DNA of 64,000 nucleotides, from the NCBI GenBank assembly GCA_015478895.1, contig JADMKK010000041.1:237884-301883 (forward strand), written 5' to 3'. Made by a program: the position numbers and the translations under genes. The notes under the pieces were generated by a model. The model was not told the origin of the DNA. It saw only the letters and a list, made by a program, of their open reading frames with translations, and searched no databases. The DNA is from Comamonas sp. (GTDB lineage Bacteria > Pseudomonadota > Gammaproteobacteria > Burkholderiales > Burkholderiaceae_C). Shown piece after piece: positions 1,822 through 19,415 of this stretch (positions are counted from its first letter, which is position 1; each line of letters starts with the position of its first letter).

Positions 1822-3114
1822 ATGAGTTCCCCACACAACGACGTGCCCGCCGCCGCTGCACCTGCAGCGCAGCAAAGCGCACTCAGCCACCTTCGTGTTC
1901 TGGATTTGTCCCGCGTTCTGGCCGGGCCTTGGTGTACGCAAAATCTTGCGGACATGGGGGCCGATGTCATCAAAATCGAAAAACCCGGTGAGGGCGATGA
2001 CACGCGCCATTGGGGGCCTCCATTTTTTAACGATGCACAGGGCAACCCCACCAAGCAAGCCGCCTACTTTGCAGCTTGCAACCGCAATAAGCGTTCGGTC
2101 ACCGTGGACATGGCGACGCCCGAGGGCCAGCAAATCATCCGTGAGCTGGCTGCGCAAAGCGATGTGGTGGTGGAGAACTTCAAGACCGGGGGTCTGCAGC
2201 GCTACGGCCTGGATTACGAGAGCCTGCGAGCGCTGAATCCGCGTTTGATTTATTGCTCGGTCACTGGCTTTGGTCACACGGGGCCTTATGCAGCCCGTCC
2301 TGGCTATGACCTGTTAATGCAAGCCATGAGCGGCATGATGAGCATCACTGGCCATGCTGATGGTGAGCCCGGTGGCGGCCCCATGAAGGTGGGCGTGGCC
2401 GTGACCGACCTGTTCACTGGCATGTACGCTACCACCGCCATTTTGGTGGCGCTGGAAGCACGTCACCGAACGGGACGCGGTCAGCACATTGACATTGCTT
2501 TGCTGGATGTGGCCATGGCCATGCTGGGCAATCAGGGCGCAGGTTTCCTGAATGCCGGCAGCATTCCCAAGCGCATGGGCAATATTCACCCCAGCGTGGT
2601 GCCTTATCAGGACTTCCCCACGTCCGATGGCAACATGCTGCTGGCCATTGGCAATGACGGCCAGTTCGCGCGCTTTTGTGAAGCGGTCGGTGTGCAGTGG
2701 CACAAGGACGAACGCTTTGCGACCAATACGGGGCGCGTCAATCACCGCAAGCTCATCAACGCCATAGTGGCAGAGATTGCGCTGACCAAAACGACCTCGG
2801 AATGGGTGAGCTTGCTGGAAGCCCATATGGTGCCTTGCGGGCCGATCAACCACATTGGCCAAGCATTTGATGACCCCCAAGTGAAAGCCCGTGGCCTGCG
2901 GGTCGAGCAAGAGCGCTACCCGGGCCAGGAGACTGGGCCGGGCGTGGTGCAAACGATCGCTTCAGCGGCCAGCCCACTGCGTCTGTCGGAAACGCCGCCT
3001 ACATTGCGCTACGCGCCACCCGAGCTAGGTCAGCACACGGAGCAGGTGCTGCGGGACTATCTGCAGATCGATGCAGCGCGGCTGCAAAGCCTGCGCGAGC
3101 AGGGCGTGGTATAG
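1822..3114 (+). CDS. CaiB/BaiF family (class III) CoA-transferase
   Basis: LRVLDLSRVLAGPWCTQNLADMGADVIKIEKPGEGDDTRHWGPPF; GLDYESLRALNPRLIYCSVTGFGHTGPYAARPGYDLLMQAMSG. Confidence 0.93.
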   Translation: MSSPHNDVPAAAAPAAQQSALSHLRVLDLSRVLAGPWCTQNLADMGADVIKIEKPGEGDDTRHWGPPFFNDAQGNPTKQAAYFAACNRNKRSVTVDMATPEGQQIIRELAAQSDVVVENFKTGGLQRYGLDYESLRALNPRLIYCSVTGFGHTGPYAARPGYDLLMQAMSGMMSITGHADGEPGGGPMKVGVAVTDLFTGMYATTAILVALEARHRTGRGQHIDIALLDVAMAMLGNQGAGFLNAGSIPKRMGNIHPSVVPYQDFPTSDGNMLLAIGNDGQFARFCEAVGVQWHKDERFATNTGRVNHRKLINAIVAEIALTKTTSEWVSLLEAHMVPCGPINHIGQAFDDPQVKARGLRVEQERYPGQETGPGVVQTIASAASPLRLSETPPTLRYAPPELGQHTEQVLRDYLQIDAARLQSLREQGVV

Positions 3115-3137
3115 CGCTGGGCGCAGCCTTGCAGCGT

Positions 3138-3168
3138 TAAAAGCCAACCTCTTGGAGGTTGGCTTTTT
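3138..3168. terminator. Rho-independent, bidirectional terminator between convergent CoA-transferase genes
   Basis: aaaagccaacctcttggaggttggctttttt. Confidence 0.85.
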
Positions 3169-3188
3169 TGCGTAGAGCCCCAGCTGAT

Positions 3189-4388
3189 TCAGGCAGGTGC
3201 TTGGCCTTGCAGTTGGGAGATGCTGTGCTGCGTCCAGCCCAGCTCCAGCAGGATGCTGGCCGTGTGCTGGCCCAGGGCGGGAATATCGCCCATGCAGTAA
3301 TCAAACGCGCTATTGATGCCCGGAGGCAGCAGCGCGGGGAGCGGGCCTGCGGGGCTAGCCACCGTGCACCAGCGCTGGCGGGCCTGCAGTTGCGGGTGCG
3401 CCCACAGGCCTGCCATATCGTTCACGAGTGCGCTGGCAATGCCTGCCGCATCGAGCCGCTGCAGCACTTGCTCGGCCGTCAGCGCGGCAAAGCATTCCAG
3501 AATTAACGCCTTCAGTGGCTCTCGGTGGGTACTGCGCAGGGCGTTGCTGGCGTACAGCGCATCGCTGGCCACATGCGGAAGCCGCAGCACCGTGGTGCAA
3601 AACGCCTGCCACTCCCGCTCGTTTTGCAGGCCGAGCATGATGGTGCTGCCATCGCCCGTTGCAAAGGGCCCATACGGATAGATGCTGGCGTGTGCAGCGC
3701 CTGCACGGGGCGGCGGCGCTGCACCTTCGTAGGCGTAGTACATGGGGTAGCCCATCCATTCACCCATCGCCTCCAGCATGGAGACATCAATGTGACTGCC
3801 CACGCCGGTCTGGTTGCGCAGCAACAGAGCCGAGAGGATATTGGTGTAGGCGTACATGCCCGCTGCAATGTCGGCCACGGAAATGCCCGATTTGCTCGGC
3901 GCGTCTGGCGTGCCTGTCACGGAAAGAAAACCTGCTTCGCTCTGGATCAGCAAGTCATACGCCTTCTTGTCGCGGTACGGGCCGTCTGCGCCATAGCCGC
4001 TGATGTCACACACAATCAGGCGAGGGTGGAGCGCCTGCAAGTTCTCATAGGACAGGCCCATGCGTGCCGCGGCACCCGGCGCCAGGTTTTGCACCAGCAC
4101 ATCGGCAGTGGCCAGCAACTGCATCAGCGCTTGCTGCGCCAAAGGCTGCTTGACATCCAGCGCCATGCTTTCCTTGCTGCGGTTGATCCAGGTGAAGTGG
4201 GACGACTGGCCGTTGACGCGCTGGTCATAACTGCGGGCAAAGTCACCGCTGTCAGGGCGCTCAATCTTGATAACGCGAGCGCCCAGATCAGCCAGCTGAC
4301 GCGTACAAAAGGGCGCGGCCACCGCATGTTCCAAGGAGATGACAGTCACCCCGTTCAGAGGGCGCAAAGGCAAAGAAGAAGCAGTCAT
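3189..4388 (-). CDS. CaiB/BaiF family CoA-transferase
   Basis: LNGVTVISLEHAVAAPFCTRQLADLGARVIKIERPDSGDFARSYD; internal ATG preferred over ORF start 4481. Confidence 0.9.
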   Translation of the reverse strand: MTASSLPLRPLNGVTVISLEHAVAAPFCTRQLADLGARVIKIERPDSGDFARSYDQRVNGQSSHFTWINRSKESMALDVKQPLAQQALMQLLATADVLVQNLAPGAAARMGLSYENLQALHPRLIVCDISGYGADGPYRDKKAYDLLIQSEAGFLSVTGTPDAPSKSGISVADIAAGMYAYTNILSALLLRNQTGVGSHIDVSMLEAMGEWMGYPMYYAYEGAAPPPRAGAAHASIYPYGPFATGDGSTIMLGLQNEREWQAFCTTVLRLPHVASDALYASNALRSTHREPLKALILECFAALTAEQVLQRLDAAGIASALVNDMAGLWAHPQLQARQRWCTVASPAGPLPALLPPGINSAFDYCMGDIPALGQHTASILLELGWTQHSISQLQGQAPA

Positions 4389-4502
4389 AGCATGGCACCA
4401 AGCAGCAAAGCTTGGCATCTTCGCGAATCCTTGCAGGTGCAGCAATCGAGCTTTGTGCAAGTACCTCTTTGACGTTGCCAAAGTCGCTGCGCGGTGTATC
4501 GC

Positions 4503-5885
4503 TCAGCGGCGCTTGGCGCGGTCAATGGACCACAGGTAATTCATCTCTGCACAAAACGGCTGGGCGCAGATCGCACGGCCTTGGTATTGGCAGCCTGCAC
4601 GGTTGCAGAAGTTGGCTTGCTCGTTGGAGTTCTTGGACTGCTTTTGGCCCTGTCGATCCTGCTCGGCCTGCGCCATCAGCAGCCACGGATCGGTGCCCCG
4701 GTTTTGCAGCATGGCTTGCACCTCTTGCGGCAGCAGGTGCATGGGCATATAGGTCGATGCTGCCTGCGCACTTTGCGCCGCCTGGGCCAGCGGCTGAAAC
4801 TCCAGCTGCAAGATGGCGCTGGTGCGCATGGCTTGCGCTGCAGCCGCAGCGGGCGTGCCGGGCAGCGCTTGCGGCTGCATCACCAAGCCCATGCTGCCGC
4901 TGGCCAGTTGCTGCACGCTCCCAGTAAAAGGCAATTGCAGCAAACCCGGTAAACCAATTGCCGACAAGGGTGGCGAGCCCGCGCTGGGCGCCGGTGTGGC
5001 CAGCGCCGCCTGCAAACCTGCCCCCAAAGCTGATGGCGCGGCACCTGCCGCTTGCCCCGCGCCGGGCAACGCGGCGCCCAGGGCCACCTGGGCCTGGGCC
5101 CATGCGACCGGGACGCGCAACGTCAGCGTAAATGCACGCTCGCCATCACTGCCCAGCACCGAGCCCTGTTGTACCAGCCAGTTTTGCAAGGCGGGCAGCA
5201 ACATGCTGGGTTTGTCGGCCACTACGGCGGCAGGCGTGGAGGGCGCTGTGGGCACCGCTGCCGTGGGTGCAGGGGTTGTGGGAGTAGGGGCAGATTGCCC
5301 TGCCTGCTGCAGCACCGCATTGATGAGTTGGGTGGGCCAGGACTGCACGCTCACCAACTGCTGTGGCAGGGGCTGTGCGGCGGTGGCGTTTTGCAGCAAG
5401 ACGGTCAGCAGTGCCTGCAATTGCGGGGTGACTCCGCCTGCGGGCCAGTTCGCTGGCAGGGTGACTCCGCCCGGCTGAATCTGGTTCACCAAGTTGGCCA
5501 CCAGCTGATTGAACGCTTCCATCTTGACCGCCTGCTGGGCCTGCGCCGACAGGTTGACGGTATTGCTCAGCGCCGTTTGCGCGGCCGCCACAATGCTGGC
5601 GACCTGCGCCGCACTGGCTACCCCTGTCGAGGGCGTGACCGCAGCTGCAGGCGCTGCACTCGCAACTGCGGCGGGCTGCGCACCGCTTGCGGTATTGGCT
5701 ACGCCAGTTTCCGTGCCCGTGCCGCCGCCAGTCTGACCTTGGGCAGTGGCCGCACTGGCAGCAAAGCTGGCTGCCCCCGGGCTGGCGCTGGCTGCATGGC
5801 TGGCTACATTGCTGGGTGCAGGCGAGGCCGGGGGCTGGGCGGCAGAAGGTGGAATGGCTTGGGTCACGCGCAGACTGTAGTGCAA
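4503..5885 (-). CDS. hypothetical Ala/Pro/Gln-rich protein with Cys-rich C-terminus
   Basis: 460-aa ORF filling the gap between same-strand genes; low-complexity N-terminus, C-terminal CNRAGCQYQGRAICAQPFC motif; no family recognised with confidence. Confidence 0.7.
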   Translation of the reverse strand: MHYSLRVTQAIPPSAAQPPASPAPSNVASHAASASPGAASFAASAATAQGQTGGGTGTETGVANTASGAQPAAVASAAPAAAVTPSTGVASAAQVASIVAAAQTALSNTVNLSAQAQQAVKMEAFNQLVANLVNQIQPGGVTLPANWPAGGVTPQLQALLTVLLQNATAAQPLPQQLVSVQSWPTQLINAVLQQAGQSAPTPTTPAPTAAVPTAPSTPAAVVADKPSMLLPALQNWLVQQGSVLGSDGERAFTLTLRVPVAWAQAQVALGAALPGAGQAAGAAPSALGAGLQAALATPAPSAGSPPLSAIGLPGLLQLPFTGSVQQLASGSMGLVMQPQALPGTPAAAAAQAMRTSAILQLEFQPLAQAAQSAQAASTYMPMHLLPQEVQAMLQNRGTDPWLLMAQAEQDRQGQKQSKNSNEQANFCNRAGCQYQGRAICAQPFCAEMNYLWSIDRAKRR

Positions 5886-5919
5886 AAACGCCAGGCTGCC
5901 TTGGCCGTGTTACATCGCT

Positions 5920-5970
5920 TTTTGTAGCTACTAGCCATTATGGAATAAGGGCTAGTGGTCAATTTGGCTT
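5920..5970 (+). repeat. short-class intergenic palindromic repeat
   Basis: TTTTGTAGCTACTAGCCATTATGGAATAAGGGCTAGTGGTCAATTTGGCTT. Confidence 0.85.
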
Positions 5971-6885
5971 GTATTTTCCCTGCGCAGAGGGTTGCAGTTG
6001 CTGCACAAACAACGTGGCAGCCAGCCCCAGCGGGCGCTCTTTCGACCACACCCAGTCCACAAACAAGCGGGTGCCATTGCTGATATTGGCAAACGGTATC
6101 TGCACCAGCTCACCGCTGTGAATGTGCGGCTCCACAAAGCTTTGCGGCAGCCAGCCCCAGCACAGGCCTGCCGCAATCAGGGCGCGCGCAGCGCCGTGGC
6201 TGTCTGCACGCCACAGGTGGTGCGAGAAGACAAAGCGCTTATCGGTCAGCGCCGGGTCACGGCTGGCTACCAAAATCTGCCGCGCTGCCGCCAGTTGCGC
6301 CATGTCGATGTGCGTGCCTTGCTGAGCTTGCAATTGCTGCCACAACGGGTGCCGTGGCGACATTACCGCGACCAGTGTCTCCGAGCCTTGCTCCTGAAAC
6401 CCTTCGCGGTCGTCAATGTTGGGCCGCTCAAACACCAAGGCCAGCTGCGCGCGGCCTGCGTGCAGCAGCTCCAGCGCATCGTCTTGGGGGGCCACCAGCA
6501 CTTCCACCACCAAGGCCGGGTACTGCGCAATCACCGGGCGCAAATGCTCGGCCCACGTGGTGGCCAGCAATTCAGGCGCAATCGCCAAGGTGAGGCGTTT
6601 TTCCAGCCCTTCGTGCAGTGCCAAGGCCTGCTGATTGAGCTGCTGTAACTGCTGCGCCAGCAGGCGCGCCTGCGGCTCCAGCGCCTGGGCGGCGGCTGTG
6701 GGGACGGGCTCGCGGCCCCGGCGGTCAAACAGTTGCAGGCCCAGTTCAGCTTCAAGTTGCCCCATCGCCATGCTGATGGCCGAAGGCACCCGCCCCAGCT
6801 TGCGCGCAGCGGCTGAAAACGAGCCGGTATCAATCACGGCCAAAAACAGGGGAACTTGCTCAGGAGGGAAGGGCATGGCGCTCAA
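5959..6885 (-). CDS. LysR family regulator, divergent from a PACE efflux gene
   Basis: LysR wHTH (LFLAVIDTGSFSAAARKLGRVPSAISMAMGQLEAELGLQLFDRRGREPVPT). Confidence 0.9.
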   Translation of the reverse strand: MSAMPFPPEQVPLFLAVIDTGSFSAAARKLGRVPSAISMAMGQLEAELGLQLFDRRGREPVPTAAAQALEPQARLLAQQLQQLNQQALALHEGLEKRLTLAIAPELLATTWAEHLRPVIAQYPALVVEVLVAPQDDALELLHAGRAQLALVFERPNIDDREGFQEQGSETLVAVMSPRHPLWQQLQAQQGTHIDMAQLAAARQILVASRDPALTDKRFVFSHHLWRADSHGAARALIAAGLCWGWLPQSFVEPHIHSGELVQIPFANISNGTRLFVDWVWSKERPLGLAATLFVQQLQPSAQGKYKPN

Positions 6886-11972: not shown

Positions 11973-13034
11973 ATGCCCCAGCCTACGCGTGGTTTCTCTG
12001 CTTCATCTCCCACCAGTCCTCTGGGCTTGTTCCACTTTGTTCGCCGCGACCCGCGCGAGGACGATGTGGTGATCGACATTCTCTACAGCGGTGTCTGCCA
12101 CTCCGATTTGCACACTGCGCGCAATGACTGGGGCGGCACGGTGTACCCCACGGTGCCTGGCCACGAAATTGTTGGCCGTGTGGTGGCGGTGGGTACGGGC
12201 GTGACCCAATTCAAGGTGGGCGATGCTGTGGGCGTGGGCTGCATGGTGGACAGCTGCCAGAGCTGCGGCGCCTGTGCCAGGGGCTGGGAGCAGTACTGCG
12301 AACGCGGTATGACGGGCACCTACAACAGCAGCGACCGCGTAGATGGCTCGCCCACACAAGGCGGCTATGCCGAGCACATTGTGGTGCGCCAGGAATTTGT
12401 GCTGAAGATGCCTGAGGGGCTGGATTTGAAGGGCGCGGCACCCCTGCTGTGCGCAGGCATCACCACCTGGTCGCCGCTGCGCCACTGGAAGGTGGGCCCG
12501 GGCAGCAAGGTGGCCGTGGTGGGCTTGGGTGGACTGGGCCACATGGCCTTGAAGCTGGCCAAAGCGCTGGGCGCGGAAGTGACATTGTTCAGCCGCTCAG
12601 CAGGCAAGGAAGACGACGCCAAGCGCCTGGGCGCTGACCGTGTCGTCATCAGTACCGAGAAAGACCAGATGAAAGCCGTACGTGGGCAGTTTGATCTGAT
12701 CCTCGACACCGTGCCTTACGCCCACGACCTGAATCCCTACACCGCCACACTGGCCACTAATGGCACGCTGGTGCTGGTGGGCTTCCTGGGCCTGCAAGAG
12801 CCTGCCGTGAATACCGTGCCACTGATTCTTGGCCGCAAGTCGGTGGCCGGTTCCGTGATTGGCGGCATTGCTGAGACACAGGAGATGCTGGACTTCTGCG
12901 GCCAGCACGGCATTACTTCCGATGTCGAGATGATTGCCATGCAAGACATCAACGAGGCTTATGAGCGCATGCTGAAAAGCGATGTGAAATACCGTTTTGT
13001 GATCGACATGGCTTCGCTCAAGCAAAGCGCATGA
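11973..13034 (+). CDS. NAD(P)-dependent zinc alcohol dehydrogenase (YahK/cinnamyl-alcohol dehydrogenase-like)
   Basis: YSGVCHSDLHTARNDWG, PGHEIVGRVVAVG, GVGCMVDSCQSCGAC, GLGGLGHMALKLAKALGAEVTLFSRS. Confidence 0.93.
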   Translation: MPQPTRGFSASSPTSPLGLFHFVRRDPREDDVVIDILYSGVCHSDLHTARNDWGGTVYPTVPGHEIVGRVVAVGTGVTQFKVGDAVGVGCMVDSCQSCGACARGWEQYCERGMTGTYNSSDRVDGSPTQGGYAEHIVVRQEFVLKMPEGLDLKGAAPLLCAGITTWSPLRHWKVGPGSKVAVVGLGGLGHMALKLAKALGAEVTLFSRSAGKEDDAKRLGADRVVISTEKDQMKAVRGQFDLILDTVPYAHDLNPYTATLATNGTLVLVGFLGLQEPAVNTVPLILGRKSVAGSVIGGIAETQEMLDFCGQHGITSDVEMIAMQDINEAYERMLKSDVKYRFVIDMASLKQSA

Positions 13035-13154: not shown

Positions 13155-15212
13155 TTACGCATCCAGCGCATGGTTGCGCGGTTGCACGTGGGACAGCGCT
13201 TCCCACGGCAATTCCAAGGCCCAGCCTGCTGCCACCACGCACAGCCACTCATGCAGTGCCCAGCCCTGCAAAGCCGCTGGCAGAGGCAGGTGGTATTGCT
13301 GTTCCTCCCGCTGGCAGATGACTTGGCCTTGCCGCACAAACACGGTACCGCCTTGTACGCGCTGGTGGGATTGCAGGGCGGGGTGCGCTTCATCCGCATC
13401 CACCCAAATCACGCGGCCCAGGCAGGTCAGGGCCAAAGCTTCCAGCTGGGCAGAGCCTGCAGGCAGCACCACCGCCCCGCCAGGGCGCACGGCGCGCAGC
13501 TGCGCAGCAATGACGCGCTGCTGCACAGAAAGGTCCATCGCTGGAGGCTCGGGCGTGATGATGCTGACATCACACTGCAGGTACGCCCAGCCTTGGGCGA
13601 CGGCCTCCAGACTGTTTTGGCTGATGACCGCGGCCGTGGCGCTGCGGTGCATCAGCGCACGCTGTGCGGCGGGCGCCATGCCGGCGGCAGCCGGGGTATG
13701 CGGCTGGTGCGGCAGATAGAGGGCATCGCCAATCGCCACAGGGGTCTCGTAGCCGCTGGCGCTCATCCAGGCTCCCAAAGCATGGGCCATGCGGGCCCCG
13801 CTTTCCGTTGGTGCCAGCAAACCTGCGAGGGGAATGCGGCCCGCCAGCTCCGACGGAAACAAGTGCCGACCAATAGCCTCGCCCACCGCGCGTGGCTGGC
13901 CGTGTACTGGCCGCAGATGCATCAGCAAACTGGGGCCTGCGTTGACCTCGATCATCGCGCCGCCTTGCGCTGCCAGGGGCTGGCGAATGTCTTGCACCAC
14001 CAGGTCGATGCCGGCAATGTCCAGCCCAATCGTGCGCGCTGCCAAGATGACGCAGCGGGCGATGTCAGGGTGGACATCGTCTGTGCAATCGACCGTCAGA
14101 TTGCCGGTGCGCAGCAGCACCACGCACTGGCCTGCGGCAGGGATGGACTGGGCCGTCAATTGCTGGCGCTGCAGCTCCATGTGCACCTTGGTATTGCGCA
14201 CCATGTCGATACGCTCGACCGTCATGTCAATCAGGCAGCGCGGGTGGTTGTTGATCTGCGTTTGCACCAGGTCATGCACGGAGTGGCAGCCGTCGCCCGT
14301 CACGCTCAATTGCTCACCGCGCGTGGCGGCAACCACGGCGCCGCCCACCACCAGCACCCGGTGCTCATAACCACGGATATAGCGCTCCACCATCACCTGC
14401 GTGCCTTCGGATTTGGCGAGGTGCCATGCGGCTTCCATGCTGTCCTGGTCGTGCAGATTGAGCGTCACGCCCCGGGCGCGATTGCCGTCCAGCGGCTTGA
14501 CGACGACGGGCAGGCCAATGCGCTGGGCAATCATCCACGCCTGTGCGGGGGAGCTGGCAATTTCACCGTTGGGCGTCGGCAGGCCTGCATTGCTGAGCAG
14601 GCGCTTGGTGAGTGCTTTGTCGGCGGCAATGTCTTGGCCAATGGCACCTGTCAGATCACTTTCCGCGGTCCAGATGCGCTGCTGCGCGGCCCCCATGCCC
14701 AGTTGCACCAGATTGCCTTTGGGAAAGAGGCGAAAGTGCGGCAGGCCGCGCTGCGTGGCAGCCTCGACAATGCAGGCCGTGCTGGGGCCCAAACAGTCCT
14801 CATCCATCACTGCCAGGATGCGGTTGAGTGCCGGCTGCCACTGCGCGGGGCGCAGGGCTTCCGTCAGGTTGAGTAAATCCATGGCCTCATGCAGCATGCG
14901 CCGGCCCAGGCGTGGCTCTGCCGCAGGCAGCACCACCGTGCCGCGCCCGTTGGCTTGCGGCAGGCACTGGCAGTGCAGGATGGGCAGGCCCACCCCGAGC
15001 AGCAGGGCGTGCAGCAATTGCTCCAGCGCGGGCCAGGCGTTGCCGGGCATGTCCAGCAATTGCGCCTCCAGCGTGGGCGTGCTGCTCCAGAGGTTGGGGC
15101 CAGACCAGTGGTGGGTGTGCAGCACATGGGCTTGCTGGCACACATGGCCTTTGTTGTCGGCGAAAGAAGCGAGGGTGGTATTGAGGGAGCGCACAGGCAA
15201 ACCTCCAGACAA
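13155..15212 (-). CDS. cyanophycin synthetase-like protein (CphA'/CphA2-type): intact ATP-grasp region, degenerate Mur-ligase-like region
   Basis: ATP-grasp: DKALTKRLLSNAGLPTP, VVVKPLDGNRARGVTL, VMVERYIRGYEHRVLVVGGAVVAATRGE, VTGDG, TQINNHPR, IAGIDLVVQDI, IEVNAGPSLLMHLRPVHGQPRAVGEAI; C-terminal part lacks a GTNGKTT P-loop. Confidence 0.88.
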   Translation of the reverse strand: MSGGLPVRSLNTTLASFADNKGHVCQQAHVLHTHHWSGPNLWSSTPTLEAQLLDMPGNAWPALEQLLHALLLGVGLPILHCQCLPQANGRGTVVLPAAEPRLGRRMLHEAMDLLNLTEALRPAQWQPALNRILAVMDEDCLGPSTACIVEAATQRGLPHFRLFPKGNLVQLGMGAAQQRIWTAESDLTGAIGQDIAADKALTKRLLSNAGLPTPNGEIASSPAQAWMIAQRIGLPVVVKPLDGNRARGVTLNLHDQDSMEAAWHLAKSEGTQVMVERYIRGYEHRVLVVGGAVVAATRGEQLSVTGDGCHSVHDLVQTQINNHPRCLIDMTVERIDMVRNTKVHMELQRQQLTAQSIPAAGQCVVLLRTGNLTVDCTDDVHPDIARCVILAARTIGLDIAGIDLVVQDIRQPLAAQGGAMIEVNAGPSLLMHLRPVHGQPRAVGEAIGRHLFPSELAGRIPLAGLLAPTESGARMAHALGAWMSASGYETPVAIGDALYLPHQPHTPAAAGMAPAAQRALMHRSATAAVISQNSLEAVAQGWAYLQCDVSIITPEPPAMDLSVQQRVIAAQLRAVRPGGAVVLPAGSAQLEALALTCLGRVIWVDADEAHPALQSHQRVQGGTVFVRQGQVICQREEQQYHLPLPAALQGWALHEWLCVVAAGWALELPWEALSHVQPRNHALDA

Positions 15213-15732: not shown

Positions 15733-16896
15733 ATGTCTACACCCGATACCCGCAGCTGGCTGCAAACACTGGTGGCGTTTGATACCACCAGCCGCAATTC
15801 CAACCTCCACCTGATTGAACACGTGCGCGATGCGCTGGCCGCGCAAGGCGTGCAGGTGCAGTTGTTCAAGTCGCCCGATGGGGCCAAGTCCAACCTGTTT
15901 GCCACTTTGCCTGCCAAAGATGGCAGCACGCAAGGCGGCATCGTACTGTCCGGCCACACCGATGTGGTGCCGGTCGATGGCCAGCAATGGGACACCGACC
16001 CCTTCGCGCTGACCGAGATCGACGGCAACCTGTATGGCCGCGGCACCTGCGACATGAAAGGCTTTATCGCCGCTGGGCTGGCGCTGGTGCCCGAGTTTCA
16101 GGCCATGCAACTGGCCAAACCGCTGCACTTTGCGCTGTCGTACGACGAAGAAGTCGGCTGCGTGGGCGCGCCCATCATGCTGGAGCAGCTCAAGCTGCAA
16201 GGCCAGCGTTTTGACGGCTGCATTGTGGGTGAGCCCACCAGCATGCAGCCCGTGGTGGCGCACAAAGGCATCAACGTGTGGCGCTGCACGGTGCATGGCA
16301 GGGCGGCGCACTCCTCGCTCACCCCACGCGCCAGCAACGCCATTGAATACGCGGCGCGCTTGATCTGCCGCATTCGAGATCTGGCCGATGCTTTCAAAGC
16401 CAGCGGCCCCTACGACCAGTTCTTTGACGTGCCCTACAGCACCATGACCACCAACCAGATCAGCGGTGGCATTGCGGTCAACACCATCCCCGAGCTGTGT
16501 GAATTTGCGTACGAATTCCGCAACCTGCCCGGCATTGCGCCCGATGGTATTCAGGCGCAGGTGGAAGCCTATGTGCAGCAAGAACTGCTGCCGCGCATGC
16601 GCCAGGAGTTTGCCGATGCGCGCATTGAATTCACCGCGCTGGCGGGCGCTCCGGCATTTGATTCGGCCGAGACTGAAGCCATCACCCAGCTGGCCCAGGC
16701 GCTGACGGGCGACCGCGAAAAGCGCAAAGTGGCCTACGCCACCGAGGCCGGCTTGTTCCAGCAAGCGGGCGTGCCCACTGTGGTCTGCGGCCCCGGCGCG
16801 ATTGCGCAGGCGCACAAGGCCAATGAGTTTGTGCCGATTGAGCAATTGCAGTCTTGCGAAAACTTCCTGCGCAAGCTGGGCGAATCGCTGCGCTAA
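15733..16896 (+). CDS. argE: acetylornithine deacetylase
   Basis: M20 peptidase motifs VLSGHTDVVPVDGQQWDTDPF, YGRGTCDMKGF, SYDEEVGCVGA; C-terminal CGPGAIAQAHKANEFVPIEQL. Confidence 0.92.
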   Translation: MSTPDTRSWLQTLVAFDTTSRNSNLHLIEHVRDALAAQGVQVQLFKSPDGAKSNLFATLPAKDGSTQGGIVLSGHTDVVPVDGQQWDTDPFALTEIDGNLYGRGTCDMKGFIAAGLALVPEFQAMQLAKPLHFALSYDEEVGCVGAPIMLEQLKLQGQRFDGCIVGEPTSMQPVVAHKGINVWRCTVHGRAAHSSLTPRASNAIEYAARLICRIRDLADAFKASGPYDQFFDVPYSTMTTNQISGGIAVNTIPELCEFAYEFRNLPGIAPDGIQAQVEAYVQQELLPRMRQEFADARIEFTALAGAPAFDSAETEAITQLAQALTGDREKRKVAYATEAGLFQQAGVPTVVCGPGAIAQAHKANEFVPIEQLQSCENFLRKLGESLR

Positions 16897-18550: not shown

Positions 18551-18865
18551 TTACTGCTTTTTATTGGCGTTCAGCAAGAACTCTTCCAGCGAGAGCTGGC
18601 CATTGCCATCGCGATCCCATTCATCGAATTGCTCGGCCACAGCAGGCAGGTTTTGCGCTTCCTGGCGCGAGAGTTGACCGTTGCGATCCAGGTCTGCGCG
18701 GGTGAAAACTTCGGAAGGGGTAATGGCCGTCTGCGTGCTGGATGCGGGCACATTAGAGGAGGCATTTTGTGCCATCAAGGCGCTGCTGCCGCCCATGGTC
18801 AGGCAGGTGAACAGCACCACGCTGCGCAAGTCAAAAGCATGCAAGGGGTGGTTATGGGTGGGCAT
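18551..18865 (-). CDS. secreted EF-hand domain protein (paralog of 18999..19415)
   Basis: Two EF-hand loops: DLDRNGQLSRQE and DRDGNGQLSLEE. Confidence 0.82.
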   Translation of the reverse strand: MPTHNHPLHAFDLRSVVLFTCLTMGGSSALMAQNASSNVPASSTQTAITPSEVFTRADLDRNGQLSRQEAQNLPAVAEQFDEWDRDGNGQLSLEEFLLNANKKQ

Positions 18866-18998: not shown

Positions 18999-19415
18999 TT
19001 AGTTGCGGGTGCCTGAGCCGGTGGTGCCAGCACCTGTGCCACTGCGATTACCGGCTCCCGTGCTGGAACTTTCCTTGGACTGATTGACGAATTCTTGTTG
19101 CGAAACTTTGCCGTCGCCATCCTTGTCCCAGTCACCAAAACTGGAGGAAATCGCGGGCAGGTTCTGGGCCTCTTCGCGGCTCAGAACGCCGTCGTTGTTG
19201 GCGTCTGCGCGCTGAAAGCTCAATTGCTGTGCCGCCTGTTGATTGGTGGTCTTGCCATCGTGGTCTAACTGCGTGTGCTTGTTGCCGTTGGCAGAACCTT
19301 GTGGATTGGGCGCGGTCTGCGCCATCAAGGTCATGCCGCTGCCCAAGGTAAGGCCAGCCAGCAAGACCAGGTTGCGAGCCTGCATGCGGGGGAATTGGCG
19401 TAGGGACTGGTTCAT
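18999..19415 (-). CDS. secreted EF-hand domain protein
   Basis: Signal peptide; EF-hand loops DANNDGVLSREE and DKDGDGKVSQQE; RxEAQNLPA shared with its neighbour. Confidence 0.83.
   Translation of the reverse strand: MNQSLRQFPRMQARNLVLLAGLTLGSGMTLMAQTAPNPQGSANGNKHTQLDHDGKTTNQQAAQQLSFQRADANNDGVLSREEAQNLPAISSSFGDWDKDGDGKVSQQEFVNQSKESSSTGAGNRSGTGAGTTGSGTRN

Follow-up and report, generated by a model that had tools for sequence, protein, structure and literature searches.

A diverged CphA-type paralogue of the Comamonas aquatica group appears to keep a single, altered ligase domain

Introduction

CphA1 is unusual in packing three enzymes, its own primer maker included, into one chain (PMC9262961). 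Cyanobacterial CphA2, which is defined by the absence of the N motif (PMC9262961) and of the P-loop and the lid of the M domain (PMC9427784), uses one active site to link beta-Asp-Arg dipeptides (PMC9427784, PMC9262961). Which of the three sites are left in the CphA-type protein encoded in the window, a 64,000-nucleotide stretch of contig 41 of Comamonas sp. (JADMKK010000041.1, positions 237,884 to 301,883 of the forward strand), and what could such a protein still do? A first-pass annotation had described it as a lone relative of cyanophycin synthetase with an intact ATP-grasp and a dead Mur-ligase half. We refer to it as LONE, the third CphA-type paralogue, whose gene lies on the minus strand (13155..15194).

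In this study, comparison with CphA indicates that LONE is left with an altered ATP-using ligase domain alone, the other two active sites of the enzyme being lost. We show that LONE belongs to the CphA' branch as a third, diverged paralogue, which was found in the Comamonas aquatica group only. This bears on how CphA proteins that have no N site obtain their primers, and on why some 97% of cphA1-bearing betaproteobacterial genomes are without a recognisable cyanophycinase (PMC10206079).

Results

Active sites of LONE

The proposed relationship to CphA is borne out. VVVKPLDGNRARGV, VMVERYIRGYEHRVLVVGG and IEVNAGPSLLMHL of LONE align with the CphA ATP-grasp, and in the PDB CphA1 chains are matched with E down to 2.3e-69, five of them ranking top, while CphA2 is matched more weakly. 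LONE scores 540 bits on NF010623 (cut-off 877) and 371 bits on TIGR02068 (cut-off 850). The next-best scoring ATP-grasp relatives are GshAB and NAGGN synthetase.

Residues are numbered according to SuCphA1 (PDB 7lg5) and their roles are taken from PMC9427784 and PMC9262961. The N domain (14799..15194, minus) is degenerate and shortened; the Cx19HxxEH peptidase segment, which holds C59, H79, E82 and H83, is deleted in all five LONE proteins, and PF18921 is not matched. In the pseudo-Mur domain (13158..13847, minus) K499, T500, T522, E558, D585 and H586 are all lost. At the site of the former Mur P-loop, GRIPLAGLLAPTESGAR (13791..13841, minus), neither LONE nor its four orthologues show a counterpart of the P-loop, and the region of D585 and H586 is gone; the Mur half is dead, as had been described. 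An intact P-loop hidden by misreading is unlikely, since it is absent from all five orthologues. The colinearity claimed downstream of this site extends to about SuCphA1 residue 712 and is followed by 14 more residues, but the M lid, which spans about 160 residues in CphA and was passed over by the first-pass annotation, is missing. The fold of the lidless M core is probably kept, because a Foldseek search with an AlphaFold2 model of LONE still finds Mur ligases (E ~3e-5); the same search ranks CphA2 directly behind CphA1. Use of this model was limited to its Mur-like half and to the family match.

The G (ATP-grasp) domain (13848..14798, minus; PF08443) keeps its Gomega module. That it is intact holds for the ATP/Mg residues K220, K261, R309, D431 and E450, which are invariant in all five LONE proteins, but not for five others: H267 in the P-loop VVVKPLDGNRARGV (14466..14507, minus) is Arg in 5/5 orthologues, R323 is Gly, S396 is deleted, G456 is Ser and R458 is Leu. 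R309 holds the C-terminus of cyanophycin and R458 the alpha-carboxylate of the acceptor, and R323, S396 and R458 form part of the pocket for the incoming aspartate (PMC9427784). Three of the four Asp-acceptor residues tested are therefore lost, N394 being kept. Replacement of H267 by Ala lowers the activity of both TeCphA1 and SuCphA1 and serves as the G-dead mutant of SuCphA1 (PMC9427784). The ATP site of LONE appears to be usable, unlike the free-aspartate site, since the ATP/Mg residues are kept while R323, S396 and R458 are lost.

We tentatively favour the reading that LONE is a single-site ATP-dependent peptide ligase that uses an acceptor different from free aspartate, because the residues that would hold aspartate are gone and because the architecture equals that of cyanobacterial CphA2. 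In this reading R309 would hold a chain of the beta-Asp-Arg type, whose C-terminal carboxylate LONE would phosphorylate and link to a non-Asp acceptor, in the simplest case a beta-Asp-Arg dipeptide or another short peptide.

Gene model and selection

The open reading frame (ORF) listed at 13155-15212 on the minus strand has 685 codons and opens with TTG at 15212. Most likely translation starts at GTG 15194 instead, giving a protein of 679 amino acids, because the orthologues align there with their ATG and a ribosome-binding site, GGAGG (15202..15206, minus), precedes the GTG by about 7 bases. In three of the orthologues AAGGAGG precedes the ATG at a similar position. With 65.7% G+C the gene stands above its neighbours (60-62%).

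The ORF is a real gene and not a chance frame: it is open in five species at a synonymous divergence (dS) of ~1, with ratios of nonsynonymous to synonymous substitution rates (dN/dS) of 0.09-0.39. Computed as proportions (pN/pS) and leaving out the window copy, the ratio is 0.10-0.16 for the G domain, 0.15-0.32 for the N domain and 0.25-0.52 for the M domain. Identity to full CphA' is 0.57, 0.28 and 0.29 for G, N and M, respectively. Purifying selection on LONE concentrates in the ATP-grasp domain; the ligase domain is the part being kept.

It is very improbable that LONE is merely a decaying duplicate without important function. Such a duplicate would fit the fast evolution of LONE, which is 64% identical across the set as compared to 84-93% for metH, adh and argE (two small lipoprotein-like neighbours also lie below these three), and the window copy, the fastest of the five, has dN/dS of ~0.2-0.4. 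However, dN/dS among the other four species is 0.09-0.21, the gene is intact in all five, and the same P-loop change is found in each of them.

Ancestry and distribution

In a maximum-likelihood tree of 45 proteins the five LONE sequences form one clade on a long stem within CphA'; the tree contains no CphA2 sequences and the long stem makes the placement unsure. In approximately unbiased (AU) tests, grouping of LONE with CphA is rejected (p = 1e-4), grouping with Comamonas CphA' is not rejected (p = 0.29) and grouping with the deletion-type CphA' described below is borderline (p = 0.06). CphA' had been named as a precedent for this protein, and the tree and the AU test bear this out. LONE is nevertheless a separate, fast-evolving lineage and not a usual CphA'. 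Its Gomega indels fit CphA' of other Comamonadaceae better than those of Comamonas. A duplication of the genome's own deletion-type CphA' is unlikely, because that copy is without Gomega whereas LONE has kept it, and because of this match to other Comamonadaceae. These data fit an origin either at the base of Comamonas or in a related genus.

Orthologues of LONE (64% identity) were found in four of 100 relatives, namely Comamonas jiangduensis Q1714, C. sp. NoAH 2, C. avium Sa2CVA6 and C. aquatica NBRC 14918; the remaining relatives have the cphA'/cphA pair at most. No further orthologue was found in 401 genomes drawn from the family, where scores fall from 1318 bits (own copy) to 581, so that a widespread family is rejected. 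A plasmid search yielded ordinary CphA and other ATP-grasp enzymes only.

Other cyanophycin genes of the genome

The genome (3.2 Mb, 99.99% complete) has five RimK-type ATP-grasp places. The LONE gene is alone locally, as had been stated, but it is not the sole CphA-like gene of the genome: contig 4 carries a cphA' (677 amino acids, dead Mur P-loop) with cphA directly downstream (869 amino acids, intact Mur P-loop GTNGKTTT, 1225 bits on NF010623). The LONE gene neither adjoins cphA nor belongs to its operon. The CphA' of this pair (L006:7391-9424) and those of nine other Comamonas loci lack most of Gomega (~60-70 amino acids) and have lost H267, with the N-domain peptidase motif perfect. LONE and the tandem CphA' of its genome are therefore complementary, as CphA' has lost Gomega and H267 and kept the N site while LONE has kept Gomega. 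Substrates of LONE would be the polymer made by the genome's CphA and the pieces that the tandem CphA' cuts with its N domain.

In searches with E up to 0.001, cyanophycinase (TIGR02069, PF03575) was found neither near LONE nor elsewhere in the genome. The same holds genome-wide for IaaA (PF01112), the isoaspartyl dipeptidase IadA (TIGR01975) and an AstE/AspA-type gene (PF04952). The reported lack of cyanophycinase and isoaspartyl dipeptidase genes around LONE is thereby confirmed and extended to the genome. A missing cyanophycinase is normal for this group, since the enzyme occurs in just 2.8% of the betaproteobacterial genomes that bear cphA1 (PMC10206079). The first-pass annotation had added that LONE would be a known accessory if a cphA/cphB cluster lay elsewhere and LONE grouped with CphA'. 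This applies in half: there is a cphA/cphA' pair and LONE falls into the CphA' clade, but cphB is absent and the lineage is a separate one.

Genomic site

LONE lies between a convergent zinc-type alcohol dehydrogenase gene, adh (11973..13034, plus), and the divergent argE (15733..16896, plus), which encodes acetylornithine deacetylase (TIGR01892, above its cut-off). In all five genomes the order is lp129, lp168, adh, LONE, argE, with metH ahead where the contig extends that far. In G049, the closest relative without LONE, lp168 directly adjoins argE, and no adh of the LONE-neighbour type was found in that genome; adh and LONE are present or absent together at this site. The simplest reading is that the adh-plus-LONE block was gained in one clade; alternatively, LONE may have been lost in G049. 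argE is probably older than LONE at this site, and a functional link between the two is weak, as argE occupies the site without LONE in G049.

The position beside argE and not beside cphA would suit a ligase that has nothing to do with cyanophycin and acts on another small peptide or amino acid, as do GshF and NAGGN synthetase of the same ATP-grasp group. The remodelled acceptor site (R323G, the deleted S396 loop, R458L, G456S) and the scores of GshAB and NAGGN synthetase point the same way. We regard this as improbable: LONE has kept R309, the residue that holds the C-terminus of cyanophycin, its closest relatives are cyanophycin proteins, and the argE site in G049 speaks against it.

Two observations concern the surroundings. 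In a draft contig of C. jiangduensis (L040, G034) argE and adh are each matched as two overlapping pieces, suggesting frameshifts in a fragmented assembly; the LONE orthologue is intact. Further along the window, two adjoining small secreted-looking proteins with EF-hand-like D-x-D/N-x-D-G repeats are encoded on the minus strand (18551-18865 and 18999-19415).

CphA and its tandem partner CphA'

Counts refer to a de-duplicated set of 48 CphA', 23 tandem-type CphA, 11 CphA of other lineages and five LONE. All 48 CphA' have an unchanged N-domain endo-cyanophycinase site (H57, C59, F67, R70, H79, E82, H83, E87, Y110), and so do all 11 CphA of other lineages, for which the search showed no CphA' partner. 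In the tandem-type CphA the site is present in none; all 23 have lost C59 and have a non-His residue at position 83. This loss may be one event, so that the 23 cases are not independent. Position 267 is His in 35 of the 48 CphA' and Gln in 21 of the 23 tandem CphA. The acceptor losses of LONE are common to nearly all CphA' (R323 Gly in 46/48, S396 deleted in 48/48, R458 Leu in 45/48).

The G domain of CphA' has decayed at least two times with the N site intact: in the 10 deletion-type Comamonas proteins and, independently, in G579 (L112:6736-8757), where Gomega, the P-loop, D431 and E450 are changed and Cx19HxxEH is intact. Further partial decay is seen in L108 and L111. An apparent intermediate between CphA1 and CphA' is the protein of G088 (L031:1165-3780), which combines a CphA'-type G domain with a Mur half whose P-loop, DH pair and lid are intact. 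Two other loci stand apart. In L054 (G056; 2764-6662) cphA, with an intact cphA' upstream, is seemingly split over two overlapping frames, possibly by a frameshift or sequencing error, and L107 (G716), from a 1.9 Mb genome in which no partner was found, encodes a full-length CphA-like protein (884 amino acids) that lacks the N motif and has Lys at 267 and Asn at 585.

An N domain given in trans turns a primer-dependent CphA1 primer-independent (PMC9262961). We infer that CphA' looks like the primer-making partner of CphA, because the N site is kept by all CphA' and lost by tandem CphA. Repeated decay of the G domain with the N site kept is stronger support for this than the N-site loss in the 23 CphA. 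In a literature search that left out most subscription papers, we found no paper stating that CphA' makes primers for CphA.

The repeated decay of CphA' G domains with retention of the gene also bears on LONE itself, which might be a pseudoenzyme subunit: its G domain would dimerise and bind ATP without catalysis, and LONE would join CphA/CphA' oligomers and tune polymer length or granule formation. CphA1 acts as oligomers with G-G dimers (PMC9427784), and H267R and the lost Asp-binding residues would fit an inactive protein. We consider this somewhat less likely than a single-site ligase, given that all ATP/Mg ligands are kept in 5/5, that constraint is strongest in the G domain and that the gene lies outside the cphA operon.

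Discussion

The proposed single-site peptide ligase has several points against it. Arg at position 267 is unusual, even if His is not universal there, and with Leu at 458 a dipeptide acceptor would still need some contact for its alpha-carboxylate. A cyanophycinase as source of beta-Asp-Arg was not found in the genome. The window copy is the fastest evolving of the five, and the AlphaFold2 model, built from five sequences, has a predicted local distance difference test (pLDDT) score of 47 for the whole and 34 for the G domain, whose model is unusable. The pseudoenzyme comes close as an explanation because H267 is Arg, R458 is gone and no source of the dipeptide is known.

The paralogues described here look like a CphA1 chain taken apart site by site. 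A split-site model for Burkholderiales, in which CphA carries two ligase sites, CphA' the N site and LONE a re-purposed CphA'-type ligase site, is possible, if somewhat doubtful. If true, the N-domain endo-cyanophycinase would be the essential function of CphA', with primers supplied in trans, and CphA' would perhaps account in part for the cyanophycinase 'missing' from these bacteria. In the Comamonas aquatica group, LONE would be an enzyme that resembles CphA2 but arose separately.

Among known systems, LONE shares with CphA1 (PDB 7lg5, 7wac, 7lgm, 7lgn) the N-G-M order and the ATP-grasp core; unlike CphA1, it is down to one of three active sites, has lost acceptor residues and stays under both NCBIfam cut-offs. 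The tandem CphA' of Burkholderiales is the upstream partner of cphA. Adjacent 'CphA1, CphA2' of Sideroxydans (PMC5178258) look like the same cphA'/cphA pair, and Ralstonia eutropha H16 has two CphA homologues (PMC11362209). With tandem CphA' LONE has in common R323G, the shortened acceptor loop, R458L, the dead Mur P-loop, the missing Mur lid and the position in the tree. Unlike tandem CphA', which has Cx19HxxEH in 48/48 and H267 in 35/48 and adjoins cphA, LONE is without the motif (0/5) and without H267 and stands alone. Like cyanobacterial CphA2 (PDB 7ta5, 8fxh/8fxi), it has no N motif, M P-loop or M lid and keeps the G domain; unlike CphA2, it groups within the betaproteobacterial CphA' clade and resides in a genome without cyanophycinase. 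By these comparisons LONE appears to have reached the CphA2 architecture separately.
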